NCBI GenBank assembly: GCA_012270065.1
Contig: JAAXJB010000115.1
Span: 102,524 to 159,342 of the forward strand
Direction: 5' to 3'
DNA: 56,819 bases
Source: Rubripirellula sp.
GTDB lineage: Bacteria > Planctomycetota > Planctomycetia > Pirellulales > Pirellulaceae
In this document: piece after piece, positions 47,473 to 52,579 of the stretch
Position numbering within the stretch: the stretch's first letter is position 1
How the letters are laid out: every line of letters begins with the position of its first letter
The notes under the pieces: generated by a model
Seen by the model: only the letters and a program-made list of their open reading frames with translations
Databases searched by the model: none
What the model was told of the DNA's origin: nothing
Made by a program: the position numbers and the translations under genes

Positions 47473-50400
47473 TCATTTGCCCGAATTCAAATGTGGTTCA
47501 ATATCTGCCGGGATCGTACGTACCGGTTTTTGAACGGAAGGGATCGATTGCGCCGATGCCTTTTCCTGCAACCGCAAAAGCGCTGACCTCAGCTCTTGCA
47601 TTCTCGAATCAACATGCGGTAGACCGGCAAGATTTCTGGTTTCCTCAGGATCGTTTACGAGATTGTAAAGTTCTTCTCCATCAGGCCAGCGGGCATAACG
47701 CCACCGCTGATTGCGTATTGCCACTCCAAGCGACTTGCCCCTTGTCACGACACTGTAAGCGTATTTTTTCTTCCCCATTCTTTCCGGGTGTCCGAGGAGT
47801 GGCCGAAGCGAAACTCCCTGAAGTGCTGCTGGAACTTCCAGTCCGCCAATGTCAGCCAGAGTGGGAAATAGATCGACCAGTTCAACCATTGCATCGGAGT
47901 GTCCACCACTTTTCGTCAGTCCGGGAGACCTGATGATGAATGGAACCTTTGCACCAATGTCAAACAAAGTTACTTTGCCCCACAGAAAATGCTCGCCAAG
48001 ATGATAACCGTGATCTGACGTCAATACGACGGTTGTGTCGTCCCAGTGACCGGTTTCTTTCAGTGTCTCAAGAATGAGGCCGATCTGAGCATCGATGAAA
48101 CTTATGCATGCATGGTAAGCCTGCATGTATTGCCGGCGTTTCGAATCATTTTCGACCCCCAGCTGGAAGCCAAACGCTTCGTAACGTCGGGACTGCGCTG
48201 ACGGTGGCAGGGATTCCCATAGACGTGGCCGGTCAGCGCGGTACTGCAACGCTGCCAGAGGATACATGTCGAAGTATTTTTCCGGCGCTAGAAACGGAAC
48301 ATGTGGTTTTTGTATACCGCAGGCAATGAAAAACGGTTTGTCACCGTGGGCACGATCACGCAGCCATTTGGAGACAGCCCTTGCGTTTTTTCCATCCTTG
48401 TGTTGTTCGTCGCTCAAGCCGCTGCGGCCATAGCCCGGTGGCGTCTGTGCATTCAGTGACGCAGCAACCTGTTTTTGAATGGACTTCCACTCTCTTCGGT
48501 TTTTTCCAGAATCTACCGGACCGTTTTCTGATTCGAAAGCAAGGCGGGCTTTTCTGACCACCGGCAACTCATCATTTTCAAAACGTTCGCACAGGTCCCA
48601 GGCCTCGTCACCGGGTTCATGGCGTGGCGAGTGGAAAACTTTTCCGACACTACCCGTCCAGTAACCGTTCTGTCGGAAAAACGAAGGCATCGTCAATGTG
48701 TTGGGACGTACTTCACGTATATCCGCCTGATTGTCCAATACGCCGGTGGATTCCGGATAAAGGCCACTGAGAAAAGACGCTCGAGAAGGACCACAAACAG
48801 GATATTGGCAGAATGCCCTCTGAAAGGTCATGCCCTGAGACGCGAGCAGGTCCATGGCGGGTGTGTGAATATTTTCATAGCCACTGGGTTTCACATGGGT
48901 GTTCAAATCATCACAAACGATCAGCAGAATATTCTTCGCTCGCTTCCCTTTTGGCTTTTTCACCGGTGCCAATTTGTTTTTGCTGTTGTCGTCTTTTGTA
49001 TTCCCATTCGCCGGCACCTCCGTGTAGGGCAAATGCTTGGGAGGTGGGACGTAGTTTCCCTTTCCTCGTTCCCAGCGAAAAGTATCGCCATCGATCAGCA
49101 GATCCTTTCGTGCGTTAAGTTTATCTTCCGGTGGTGCAAAAGCACTCGGTGCGGAACTTCGCAAGCTTTTGATGAGTCCGGCATACTGCTGGTTGTCAGC
49201 GAGGTTTTCCCATTCATGAGGATCAGAGTTCAGATCGTAGAGTTCTTCGCCGTCTTGCCCGTAACGGATGTACCGCCAGTCACGATTGATGATTGCGTAC
49301 TCGGACGGATTCATGTGGGGAAGAAACACGTTTCGATCCTCAGCACTGGCTGGATCAGCCAAGGTCGAGGCCAGGGACGTTCCTTCAAGTTGCTGCTTCG
49401 GTTTTTGAAGGTCACACATTTCGACGAACGTTGGATACATGTCAATCAAACTGACAGACACATCGGACTTCCTGTTTTTCTCGATCCCAGGGCCAGCCCA
49501 AATGAACGGGACGTTGGATGTACGTTCCCAAAGCGTGTGCTTGCCCCAGTCTCCCTTCTCGCCGTGGTGATACCCGTGGTCGCTCCACAGCACCACAATT
49601 GTGTTATCTGCGTAGGGGCTGGCTTCAAGAGCATCCAGCACTCGCCCCATCATGGCATCGGCATAACTGATGCAAGCGAGGTAGCCGTGAATTGCATCAT
49701 CAACTGCATTTAGTGATTCAAGCTTCTGATGGATCCGCGACCGCGCCGTTTTCATTTTACGGATTTTGTCGGGCAGGTCATCGAGGTCTCCCTCCTTGTA
49801 GGGCGGCAACTCAATCTCATCAACGTCGTACAAGTCAAAATACTTCTGGGGACAGTAATTCGGGAAATGGGGTGCGTAGATACCAACACCAAGAAAAAAA
49901 GGTTGATCGTGCTTTCTCTGTAGTTGTTCCACTGCCCAATTGACGCGTTTGGTGTCCGCCATTTGCTCTTCCTGGTCATTGGGAAGTGCTCCCCACTCCA
50001 GAAACAAGCCACCGGTGATCTGTTCTCCCTGGTTGTAAATGCTATTCGGGAATGGTTTTGGAAAAGGTGTCCCTTCAGACCATGAATCAAGCGCCCAACC
50101 GTTCTGCCGCTGTGTCTTGCTGCGCAGGAAAAATTCATCCCAACCGCGTTTGTCAACAGCACCGACGGGATGGTGAAAAAGCTTTCCTGCACCGAGTGTC
50201 CGATAGCCAGCCTTCGAAAAACTGACTTGCAGCGGCTCAATGTCGGGACGGTTGGCAAAATAATTCGCCGTCCGGTAGCATCCGGTTGTTGACGCGTATT
50301 GCCCTGTGAAGATAGCTGCTCTGCTTGGCGCGCAAAAAACCCCAGCAGTGTGAGCGTTTGAAAAACAAACACCACGAGCTGCCAGTCGGTCCAGGTTGGG

Positions 50401-50553
50401 CGTATGCGCGCGAGGGGTTGTTTCCAAACATCCGACCCAATCATTCATGTCATCTACGGCGAGGAACAGAACATTGGGCCGTTTTGCCGAAGCTTCCGCT
50501 GACAAAACGATCAACGAGAGAATACTCACCGTCAACAAAAATAGTCTCGACAT
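47473..50553 (-). CDS. tandem two-domain sulfatase (fused iduronate-2-sulfatase-like)
   Basis: A 1026-residue exported protein containing two complete sulfatase domains. A signal peptide spans 1-23. Domain 1 (~25-480): metal site AVDDMND at 32-38, maturation motif [12 protein letters not shown] with Cys74, then [16 protein letters not shown] near 323-338. A linker (~490-535) is rich in Lys, Pro and Asn. Domain 2 (~538-1000): metal site VCDDLN at 546-551, maturation motif [12 protein letters not shown] with Cys587, and [16 protein letters not shown]. Both halves look catalytically intact and resemble iduronate-2-sulfatases. The two halves have different sequence, so they are not a recent duplication. 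The gene starts [17 protein letters not shown] and lies just upstream of the arylsulfatase, with only a short gap. Confidence 0.93.
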
Positions 50554-50972
50554 GACTTATCCATTTGAATGGTTGCTCAAAACTGGCAATCCAAAATGTT
50601 TCTCCTTGATTGCGAGCAGGTCCCCCAATTCTAATCGGTCATGCAGTTTCCGGAATCCCGACGGGGCAGCATTGAATCTCCAGCATGATCATCGCTCGTT
50701 TCTCACGGCGTTTCTGTGCCTGCTATCCTTATTGCCGAGAAATTTATGTGTTTGAAGCTGGCAGGTGACCAACGAACATCTCGAAAAATCATCCGACGCA
50801 CGTGCCAGGCACCAACTTTTTTCCCGGAAATCAAAAATTACGACTCATTTTCGTGACCAGTTTCCACCCGGAAGCAACCTGACACAATTGAACACGCCGC
50901 ATCACACATCAGCAGCGTTCACCACTCGCATGCGTGACTCCACTCATGAACTCGAAACAGAGGAAGATAAAT
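50554..50972. other. intergenic between divergent genes, nothing recognised
   Basis: About 420 bases between the tandem sulfatase and the small lipoprotein gene. Open frames here have no domain. Its right end carries an excellent Shine-Dalgarno (gaggaag, seven bases before the ATG at 50973). Confidence 0.5.
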
Positions 50973-51314
50973 ATGCACCCTGGAAGAACCTGTATGTTGC
51001 CATGTTTGGCTTTGATGGCCGCGATGCTGTTTACAACCAGCGGCTGCAACATTTCACTCGAGCAGGATCCGGCAACGACTGTCAATCTCGTCATCACCGG
51101 AATCGAGAGCGAGGACGCACGAGCAGAACTAAAGGAAACATTGACGCGAATGACAGACGGATCGGGGCATATGATGAGCAGCAAAACCGTGGGAGACAAA
51201 ATGACTGTGAGTTTGTCCCCGGTCACTGACGTGCAATCCTTCATCGACGCAGTAAGCTTCGGGACAGTCACGGAAGTGGATGGCCGCAACATCACGATTG
51301 AGTGCAAGCCTTAG
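50973..51314 (+). CDS. small lipoprotein with HMA-like (ferredoxin) fold but no CxxC
   Basis: A 113-residue protein. The start at 50973 is set by gaggaag seven bases upstream; a GTG at 50934 and an ATG at 50946 are also in frame. The lipoprotein signal is MLPCLALMAAMLFTTSGC, Cys25 being lipidated. The mature part TTVNLVITGIESEDARAELKETLTRM... followed by KMTVSLSPVTDVQSFIDAV and GTVTEVDGRNITIEC has the beta-alpha-beta-beta-alpha-beta order of heavy-metal-associated domains, but no CxxC metal site is present; this fold is inferred from pattern. It faces the HMA selenoprotein-like gene, so the two genes converge with a terminator between them. Confidence 0.78.
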   Translation: MHPGRTCMLPCLALMAAMLFTTSGCNISLEQDPATTVNLVITGIESEDARAELKETLTRMTDGSGHMMSSKTVGDKMTVSLSPVTDVQSFIDAVSFGTVTEVDGRNITIECKP

Positions 51315-51540: not shown

Positions 51541-51577
51541 AAAAAAACACCGCCCGACGGCATGACCGTGGGCGGTG
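51541..51577 (-). terminator. intrinsic terminator for the HMA lipoprotein gene
   Basis: Read on the minus strand, CACCGCCC pairs with GGGCGGTG as a perfect 8-bp GC-rich stem (51548-51555 with 51570-51577), with a further inner ACGG/CCGT pairing, and a run of seven T follows directly. It lies 37 bases beyond the TAG at 51615-51617, not beyond the TGA at 51798, which supports the longer reading of that gene. Confidence 0.9.
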
Positions 51578-51614: not shown

Positions 51615-51977
51615 CTACTGGATCGTGTAGCCAGCCAAATGACTGTTCGTTTCGGCTTGCTCCTTCAACACCGCTTTGTAATCGACGCTGGGGTCGCTGA
51701 GTTCAAAAGTGCATTTTCTGGTTGGAACGTCCGTTTGGATGTTCTCAATGCCGGGAATTTGGGTCAGAGCGCCTCGGACCGAGGCGGCACAGCTGCCTCA
51801 GTGCATGTTCGGGACTTTGAGACTGACGTAAGTAGCGGCGATCTGATCGCCACCGGGTGCCTCAGCCGATGCTGGGGCATCGCTACTGGGCGTGGGTGTA
51901 GCAACAGGCGTCGACGCCCCATTGCACCCGATCAGCCCCAGTACGACGAGCTGAACGAGTACTGCATACTTTTTCAT
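51615..51977 (-). CDS. putative selenoprotein: HMA-domain lipoprotein with UxxC in place of CxxC
   Basis: A 120-residue lipoprotein read through an in-frame TGA. The lipobox VLGLIGC comes at the start (Cys18), then a Pro/Ser/Thr-rich linker (STPVATPTPSSDAPASAEAP). The HMA domain begins ATYVSLKVPNMH, followed by TGA (51798-51800, residue 60) and GSCAASVRGALTQIPGIENI, then TFELSDPSVDYKAVLKEQ, ending GYTIQ and TAG. The family motif is M-x-C-x-x-C, so TGA occupies the first metal-binding Cys, giving M-H-U-G-S-C. Downstream of TGA the frame is open for 60 codons and completes the domain. A SECIS-like hairpin lies at 51770-51786 and a terminator follows the TAG. It should be a periplasmic metal- or redox-active protein. 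The alternative is a TGC-to-TGA nonsense mutation. The frame is also open upstream to 52046. Confidence 0.78.
51770..51786 (-). promoter_or_regulatory. candidate bacterial SECIS element
   Basis: On the minus strand, after the TGA at 51798-51800, eleven bases (GGCAGCUGUGC) lead into CGCCUC-GGUCC-GAGGCG, a perfect 6-bp stem with loop GGUCC. In E. coli fdhF the SelB-binding hairpin also starts eleven bases after UGA and its loop contains GGUC. No bulged U is seen in the stem. The hairpin lies inside the coding region, as bacterial SECIS elements do. Confidence 0.65.
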
Positions 51978-52579
51978 GAGCTGTGCTCCGATTGAGTGTA
52001 TGTGTCCAATAATCACCATTTGAATCGCCATTTCGAATAGCGACAAGTGTAAAACGCACCTTGAGGACGTTTTTGGGCGTCCCGGCTCAGGCTGAAACGG
52101 GAAAACGGCGGATATTCACAAGAACCGCGATAAACGTGCATACTTCACAGTCACCAGCCAACGAAACGTTCTGAATCATCGGTCATCCGCACTCAGACGC
52201 CCCTGCGACTCCGGCTCTGATTTTTCATGTTTCGGGCGACAAAGAACTGCAAAACCGTCACAGATCGAATCCACGCCGCTTTTGGCGACCCGCAACAACG
52301 CTTATGTCTGGTATCATGACATTGGTCGCATTCACGGGCAACCGTGACGCCATCGGCTTCGATGCAGATCACCCTCGTGGTTATGAAAGGCATCACCCTC
52401 CGCCGTTGAAGTCAGCGACTACAATTTAAAGTCAAAAAGGACACGGTTCGAATCTCTGATTCAGTGTCCTGACATCCCTTCGATAGCCGTTGTGTCGCAT
52501 TCCAGAGCACTGTGAAATCATCCCAACGCCCTGTGAAGTCTGACGCTTGGTCTTCCCCACACGCATGATAGAAACACGC
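51978..52579. other. intergenic between divergent genes, nothing recognised
   Basis: About 600 bases between the HMA lipoprotein gene and the PVC-type heme protein. Open frames on the minus strand here overlap each other and the start of the heme protein and have no features. Both promoters should be in this stretch. Confidence 0.5.

Follow-up and report, generated by a model that had tools for sequence, protein, structure and literature searches.

Small metal-binding proteins with an HMA domain, such as MerP and CopZ, bind metal with two thiolates, and a Met two residues before the first ligand is typical of HMA metal loops. Among the listed selenoprotein families, the E1-E2 ATPase is a large membrane ATPase with a UxxC motif that we take to lie in its HMA domain. 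Table 1 of a 2026 inventory of selenoproteins lists this family together with two other related rows, MerT (PF02411) and the UxxU protein NF041115 (PMC13188914). The same table has no row named as a stand-alone UxxC HMA protein and none named 'Mercuric transport protein MerP' (PMC13188914). A selenoprotein entry of the latter name, with 2 sequences, is given in the 2008 GOS survey (PMC2398784); this Sec-containing MerP is likened to the proteins described here by name alone. Planctomycete selenoproteins are listed in S9 Table of PMC4807772. A family of Sec-containing HMA proteins (Sec-HMA) was not found in our literature searches, such supplementary lists being outside their scope. The analysis presented here shows that Sec-HMA is a widespread planctomycete family, not found in the known selenoprotein lists examined.

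The window, a stretch of 56,819 nucleotides from a Rubripirellula genome, harbours on its minus strand a selenoprotein gene encoding a 120-residue HMA lipoprotein (51615..51977, ATG to TAG) with a single internal TGA. All features of this gene given below are on the minus strand. A Shine-Dalgarno-like GGAG (51986..51989) is located 8 nt 5' of the ATG. The protein starts with a lipoprotein signal peptide, MKKYAVLVQLVVLGLIG-C18 (first 18 residues, 51924..51977), ending in LIGC, which we take to be a lipobox with Cys18 as the lipidated residue. This lipobox supports the lipid anchor that the first-pass annotation had proposed, and the protein would thus be extracytoplasmic and lipid-anchored. The TGA is codon 60 (51798..51800), read as selenocysteine and first ligand of M-x-U-x-x-C in the metal-loop motif M-H-[TGA]-G-S-C; Cys63 (51789..51791) is the second ligand of U-x-x-C. 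A third Cys, Cys89 (51711..51713), is found at U+29, in strand 3 of the structural model. The HMA domain covers residues 53-105 (51663..51821), and 60 sense codons separate the TGA from the TAG. Behind the TAG lies an intrinsic terminator-like hairpin with a run of seven T (51541..51575, fold z -5.3), although a terminator consensus scan, which gave 1 terminator-like site against 1.0 expected from shuffles, is unconvincing on its own. Re-reading of the sequence agreed with the first-pass annotation on the minus-strand frame and its coordinates, the MH-TGA-GSC motif, the 60 open codons and the TAG stop. Its expectation that standard gene calling would truncate the product also held, as mechanical ORF calling ends at the TGA, before the functional domain, and yields 59 residues.

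The same in-frame TGA was found in many relatives. When the window protein was searched against 100 family genomes, a match with E <= 0.001 was obtained in 47, and the best 14 matches all carried the TGA. The main count comes from a profile search of 241 family genomes (E <= 1e-12; the first pass scores at most 24 candidates per genome), which yielded 75 close homologues in 54 genomes. An in-frame TGA is present in 70 of these 75 copies, 69 with one TGA and 1, decayed, with a TGA and a TAG, its position in the identical alignment column having been read directly for the fetched members only. The TGA form occurs in 50 of the 241 genomes. All five stop-free copies (in G029, G053, G097 and G496, and the second copy of G095) have Cys at the TGA position, while close relatives of the window gene have TGA and not an intact Cys. 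Hence an in-frame TGA stands where homologues have Cys or Sec, as in a selenoprotein. Weaker TGA-bearing matches in G016, G033, G066 and G068 fall below the threshold of the main count. A search across the phylum (392 genomes, some family members again included) gave matches with E <= 1e-8 in 47 genomes and added one strong TGA homologue (G411); the other matches are weak (best 6e-14) and mostly stop-free, with 6 carrying TGA. A DNA pattern scan of genome contigs returned 53 loci, of which 49 show the same HMA frame around the TGA, one of them (L129) cut by the end of the locus. The remaining four (L119, L121, L128, L132) have no HMA frame around the TGA and were discarded as chance pattern matches. 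Planctomycete names are attached to 45 of the 49 loci, among them the genera Rhodopirellula, Rubripirellula, Blastopirellula, Mariniblastus, Fuerstiella and Gemmata, and 4 are labelled only 'bacterium'; as some genomes contribute more than one locus, the figure of 49 does not count species. The scan pattern itself requires P, M, TGA, GG, C, S or A, V and R, and therefore conservation of these letters was counted only on an alignment collected by similarity (A1, 26 rows). Invariant in all 26 rows are P, M, U/C, the second C (U in two rows), V and L. With a TGA in 70 of the 75 copies, its occurrence within the HMA frame goes far beyond chance. The one decayed Sec-HMA copy among them, with the second ligand gone and a TAG in frame, is L193:730-1152 (-) in G076:C275.

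Bacterial SECIS elements have been described as having a stem of 4-16 bp, a loop of 3-9 nt with a G in the first two loop positions, a distance of 16-37 nt from the UGA and an MFE <= -7.5 kcal/mol (PMC13188914). A SECIS-like hairpin in the window gene, CGCCUCG-GUC-CGAGGCG (51770..51786), starts 11 nt after the TGA and satisfies all of these constraints, with 7 bp, a 3-nt loop (GUC) starting with G and beginning 18 nt after the UGA, and -10.6 kcal/mol. It occupies columns 15-31 after the TGA, with up to 7 bp and loop GUC. Covariation was analyzed in two alignments, with shuffles that preserve composition but not relatedness. In A2 (20 of 27 loci, omitting 3 Cys forms, 2 hairpins of other register and 2 double-TGA loci), 96.4% of 140 cells are paired (0/500 shuffles as high), both-side changes occur at 4 pairs (1/500 as high) and covariation is 0.273 against 0.097 in shuffles (0/500 as high). 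In A3 (48 of 55 distinct sequences, the 7 of other register omitted), the paired cells amount to 93.2% of 336, both-side changes are found at 5 of 7 pairs and covariation is 0.369 against 0.117, none of these three values being reached in 500 shuffles; all slid registers score below the actual one. The pattern scan fixes columns 20, 22, 23, 25 and 26 and allows G or T in column 19, leaving columns 15-18, 21, 24 and 27-31 free. Twenty of the 48 A3 sequences do not form the top pair and have a 5-nt loop, mostly CGUGC. In seven sequences belonging to other subgroups (L035, L065, L117, L120 and three L039 repeats) the hairpin lies 4-5 nt further downstream (for example CAGUGC-GGUCU-GCACUG) and falls into another codon register of that protein. 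The three Cys homologues examined lack the hairpin, keeping 2, 1 and 1 of the 7 pairs. The unconstrained minimum for the 51 nt from the UGA is a different structure (z -0.46, no better than shuffles); only when pairing of the first 15 nt is prevented does the minimum contain the hairpin, in a 6-bp form. As the free fold is a competing structure, single-sequence folding is not evidence here; the covariation is. In the cell, the ribosome may keep the first 15 nt after the UGA open, which would allow the hairpin to form.

The host genome (6.99 Mb, 99.5% complete) harbours all components needed for decoding Sec. A tRNA-Sec was found with 70.8 bits (gathering score 47), and SelB (297.9 bits), SelA (515.6 bits) and SelD (257.2 bits) are over their NCBIfam cut-offs of 242.25, 267.9 and 125, respectively. 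The three protein genes form one selB-selA-selD cluster with overlapping reading frames, identified with NCBIfam profiles (L049:5176-10756, minus strand, G000:C73). In this host, SelD follows a pyridine nucleotide-disulfide oxidoreductase domain as part of one fusion protein, and its frame contains no internal TGA. TGA is an ordinary stop in this genome, ending 11 of 16 ORFs checked, including selA, selB and selD, and it is also the terminal stop in 12 of 47 homologues of the HMA lipoprotein gene itself. Among the 241 family genomes, SelB is present in 114 (E <= 1e-60; 113 over cut-off), namely in 46 of the 50 TGA-form genomes versus 68 of the 191 others (Fisher p 2e-13, relatedness ignored). 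The four TGA-form genomes without SelB are G024, G095, G557 and G587. All but G557 have SelA and tRNA-Sec, and their SelB is therefore probably hidden in gaps of the assemblies, despite the 98% completeness given for G587. In G557 (80% complete) no SelB, SelA or tRNA-Sec was found at the thresholds used. In the Cys-only genomes G053 and G097, which have no SelB, tRNA-Sec was likewise not found at E 1e-9; each contains a SelA-family match, under cut-off in G053 and over cut-off in G097. Two other Cys-only genomes, G029 (L031) and G496 (L184), have SelB, SelA and tRNA-Sec. They are natural cases of Sec/Cys interchange in hosts that decode Sec, so that Sec is not indispensable at this site.

The frame behind the TGA is under purifying selection. 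Over the 60 codons behind the TGA, dN of the window gene versus L102, L107, L122 and L139 is 0.147, 0.137, 0.165 and 0.153, and dS is 1.046, 0.755, 1.149 and 1.602, giving dN/dS values of 0.10-0.18, with dS values > 1 being rough. Neither of the two findings that the first-pass annotation had named as refuting its proposal was obtained: tRNA-Sec, SelA, SelB and SelD are encoded in the genome, and close relatives carry the TGA, with these low ratios behind it. Compared to L112, L137 and L126, dN is 0.359, 0.354 and 0.380, and dS is 1.735, 1.973 and 0.886 (dN/dS about 0.21, 0.18 and 0.43); versus L100, dS is saturated. A phylogenetic tree of 48 rows, built from few columns and leaving many forks open, places the window gene with L107, L102, L019 and L018 (bootstrap 90-94%, SH-aLRT low at deeper forks). 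Of the three Cys forms, L031 branches next to a cluster of 23 Sec rows (96/83), and the remaining two are placed elsewhere. This scattering suggests that Sec and Cys have interchanged within the family.

The selenoprotein proposed in the first-pass annotation is thus backed by the tRNA-Sec, by SelA, SelB and SelD, by the TGA in 70 of 75 copies and by the covarying hairpin. Decoding of UGA codon 60 as Sec via SelB and the hairpin is strongly supported by these sequence data. At this codon, SelB with Sec-tRNA-Sec would bind the downstream hairpin and Sec would be inserted, after which translation would continue for 60 codons to the TAG, yielding a complete beta-alpha-beta-beta-alpha-beta HMA domain.

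With C written for U, the domain matches PF00403 with 49.1 bits (cut-off 24.8), confirming the full HMA domain of the first-pass annotation. In the AlphaFold model (mean pLDDT 95), strands and helices follow one another as in HMA proteins, and the predicted fold is, with high confidence, MerP/CopZ-like. The classical M-x-C-x-x-C with two Cys ligands is not present, as Sec replaces the first Cys. The first five solved fold neighbours of the model are MerP, PacS (4a48), a rice HMA protein, a second PacS-type chain and ZntA, with ATP7A and CopZ lower in the list; the best match is 1osd, oxidised MerP. Profile comparison similarly gave copper ATPases, MerP and CopZ as solved relatives. None of the five family members scanned passed an NCBIfam cut-off. 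MerP (TIGR02052), like the window protein an extracytoplasmic single HMA domain, gave the best NCBIfam score, but its 34.8 bits remain far below the equivalog cut-off of 92.55. The window protein furthermore differs from MerP in having Sec for the first Cys and in being a lipoprotein, MerP being soluble, and no mer operon was seen by eye beside its gene. NF041115, the UxxU metal-binding (seleno)protein, also has Sec at the motif and partly aligns with the HMA domain, but the window protein scores 24.9 bits against a cut-off of 95 and has UxxC, not UxxU. With NF045683, a MerT/CopZ fusion-like heavy metal transport selenoprotein, it shares the CopZ-like part; the alignment is confined to the C-terminal portion of the model and scores 21.4 bits against a cut-off of 375. 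The UxxC motif is shared with the E1-E2 ATPase selenoprotein listed in the 2026 inventory (PMC13188914), but the window protein is a stand-alone lipoprotein.

From these data the window protein is probably an extracytoplasmic, lipid-anchored HMA selenoprotein whose selenolate/thiolate site is likely to bind soft metals. By analogy in fold and motif, M-x-U-x-x-C, in most relatives together with the third Cys at U+29, would be displayed outside the cytoplasm. Its selenolate/thiolate pair, which takes the place of the two thiolates of MerP and CopZ, would bind a soft metal such as Cu(I), Hg(II) or Ag(I) and trap, buffer or relay it. Because Sec is present as the deprotonated selenolate at neutral pH, and because little is needed to reduce a selenenylsulfide, it would keep the site metal-binding in an oxidising compartment.

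The main rival explanation, with perhaps a quarter of the probability, is a redox selenoprotein in which U-x-x-C, with or without the third Cys, would close into a selenenylsulfide and serve outside the cytoplasm in thiol/disulfide exchange or in scavenging peroxide, rather than in binding metal. UxxC is frequent in the selenoprotein table of the 2026 inventory, where UxxC and CxxU are termed redox-related (PMC13188914). The third Cys at U+29, present in 38 of 50 Sec-HMA domains in a pattern scan (at U+22 instead in L103 and L115), and the oxidised state of the best fold match 1osd would also fit such a role. However, the fold is that of HMA and not thioredoxin-like, the Met two residues before U, typical of HMA metal loops, is invariant in the 26 similarity-gathered rows, and the four tandem copies of one relative (see below) would suit a binding protein more than a redox enzyme. 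The gene neighbours do not decide between the two readings. ORFs of 49 neighbourhoods, including those of the Cys locus L057 and the UxxxU locus L066, were clustered and, apart from frames antisense to the gene itself (9 loci), no partner gene recurs in more than 7 of the 49. Sulfatases are found in 7 and an amine-oxidase-family flavoprotein in 6, without a fixed arrangement; the remaining clusters represent lineage-specific genes. The flavoprotein oxidase would favour the redox reading. Its gene is found no more than a few kb away from the Sec-HMA gene in L103, L115, L125, L127, L133 and L138, in two lineages and in varying orientation, and PF01593 was matched in the two scanned (L103, L138). 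By-eye inspection of the neighbours recognised no mer or cop genes near Sec-HMA genes. Given that UxxC is common among redox motifs too, and that the neighbours are indecisive, the redox reading stands as a rival.

Two neighbours in the window itself deserve mention. A small Cys-anchored lipoprotein without a Pfam match over cut-off is encoded convergently with the selenoprotein gene (50946-51314, plus strand). Relatives occur in 5 other genomes of 100 searched and, among loci with short flanks, only in L107 is one located beside a Sec gene; given these few relatives it was dropped as a candidate partner. On the minus strand, an ORF of 1026 residues (47473-50553) contains, as judged by eye, two sulfatase-like halves in one frame, and a homologue is found near the Sec gene in L107 and L102.

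The Sec-HMA domain occurs in several architectures. In L040, L044 and L187-L192 a YceI-like secreted domain is fused to it; both Pfam cut-offs are passed in L040, L044 and L187-L191, and in L192 YceI passes with HMA just under its cut-off (22.9 of 24.8). The N-terminal regions of L035 and L108 show sub-threshold Spy/LTXXQ matches, and no Spy-like match was found in that of L186. L041 (G016) and L042 (G068) encode HMA lipoproteins with two in-frame TGA codons in a motif M-H-U-x-F-S-U (UxxxU), with hairpin-forming sequence downstream of these codons; L041 passed no NCBIfam cut-off. A lipoprotein of 450 residues (L047:2534-3883, plus strand, G076:C92) has four tandem HMA domains, recognised as four HMA stretches by Pfam, with a TGA at the first ligand of each (U86, U225, U309, U389) and a hairpin behind each TGA (-7.7 to -10.8 kcal/mol in the stretch folded). 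Prokaryotic selenoproteins with 2-3 Sec are a small subset according to the 2026 inventory, and the four-Sec lipoprotein exceeds this number (PMC13188914). Its four predicted Sec residues could also be read as a store or carrier of Sec outside the cytoplasm, like selenoprotein P in animals. Such a role, most plausible for this four-Sec relative, is very improbable, since nearly all sequences read have one Sec, at the metal-ligand position of a conserved domain, and Cys forms exist.

Two explanations that deny Sec altogether are rejected. A truncated 59-residue lipoprotein or pseudogene, with the TGA as a true stop and a relic frame behind it, would agree with mechanical ORF calling, which stops there, and with the truly decayed copy in G076:C275, but is virtually excluded by the TGA in 70 of 75 copies, the purifying selection behind it, the covarying hairpin and the complete Sec machinery. 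Reading of the TGA as another amino acid, by a code change or near-cognate suppression, for which no supporting point was found, is equally negligible in view of the Cys in all 5 TGA-less homologues, the ordinary use of TGA as stop (11 of 16 host ORFs, 12 of 47 homologues) and the presence of tRNA-Sec with SelA, SelB and SelD.

The soft-metal-binding HMA selenoprotein is therefore the preferred reading of the window gene. Since ORF calling truncates such genes before the domain, the annotations of the 50 carrier genomes among the 241 may well lack it. Sec-HMA offers a clear example of selenium in the place of a metal ligand and not in a thioredoxin-fold redox site, and a 73-residue domain with natural Cys counterparts makes the role of Sec as metal ligand in a trafficking domain testable. 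More tentatively, and with somewhat less than even probability, it can be speculated that the lipid-anchored and secreted members of the family constitute a planctomycete extracytoplasmic selenolate metal-binding system, diversified by fusion (to YceI, perhaps to Spy-like domains) and by tandem duplication to four Sec per chain. Such a system would be a selenium-based counterpart of periplasmic MerP or metallothionein, trapping soft metals outside the cytoplasm, where Cys sites would become oxidised.
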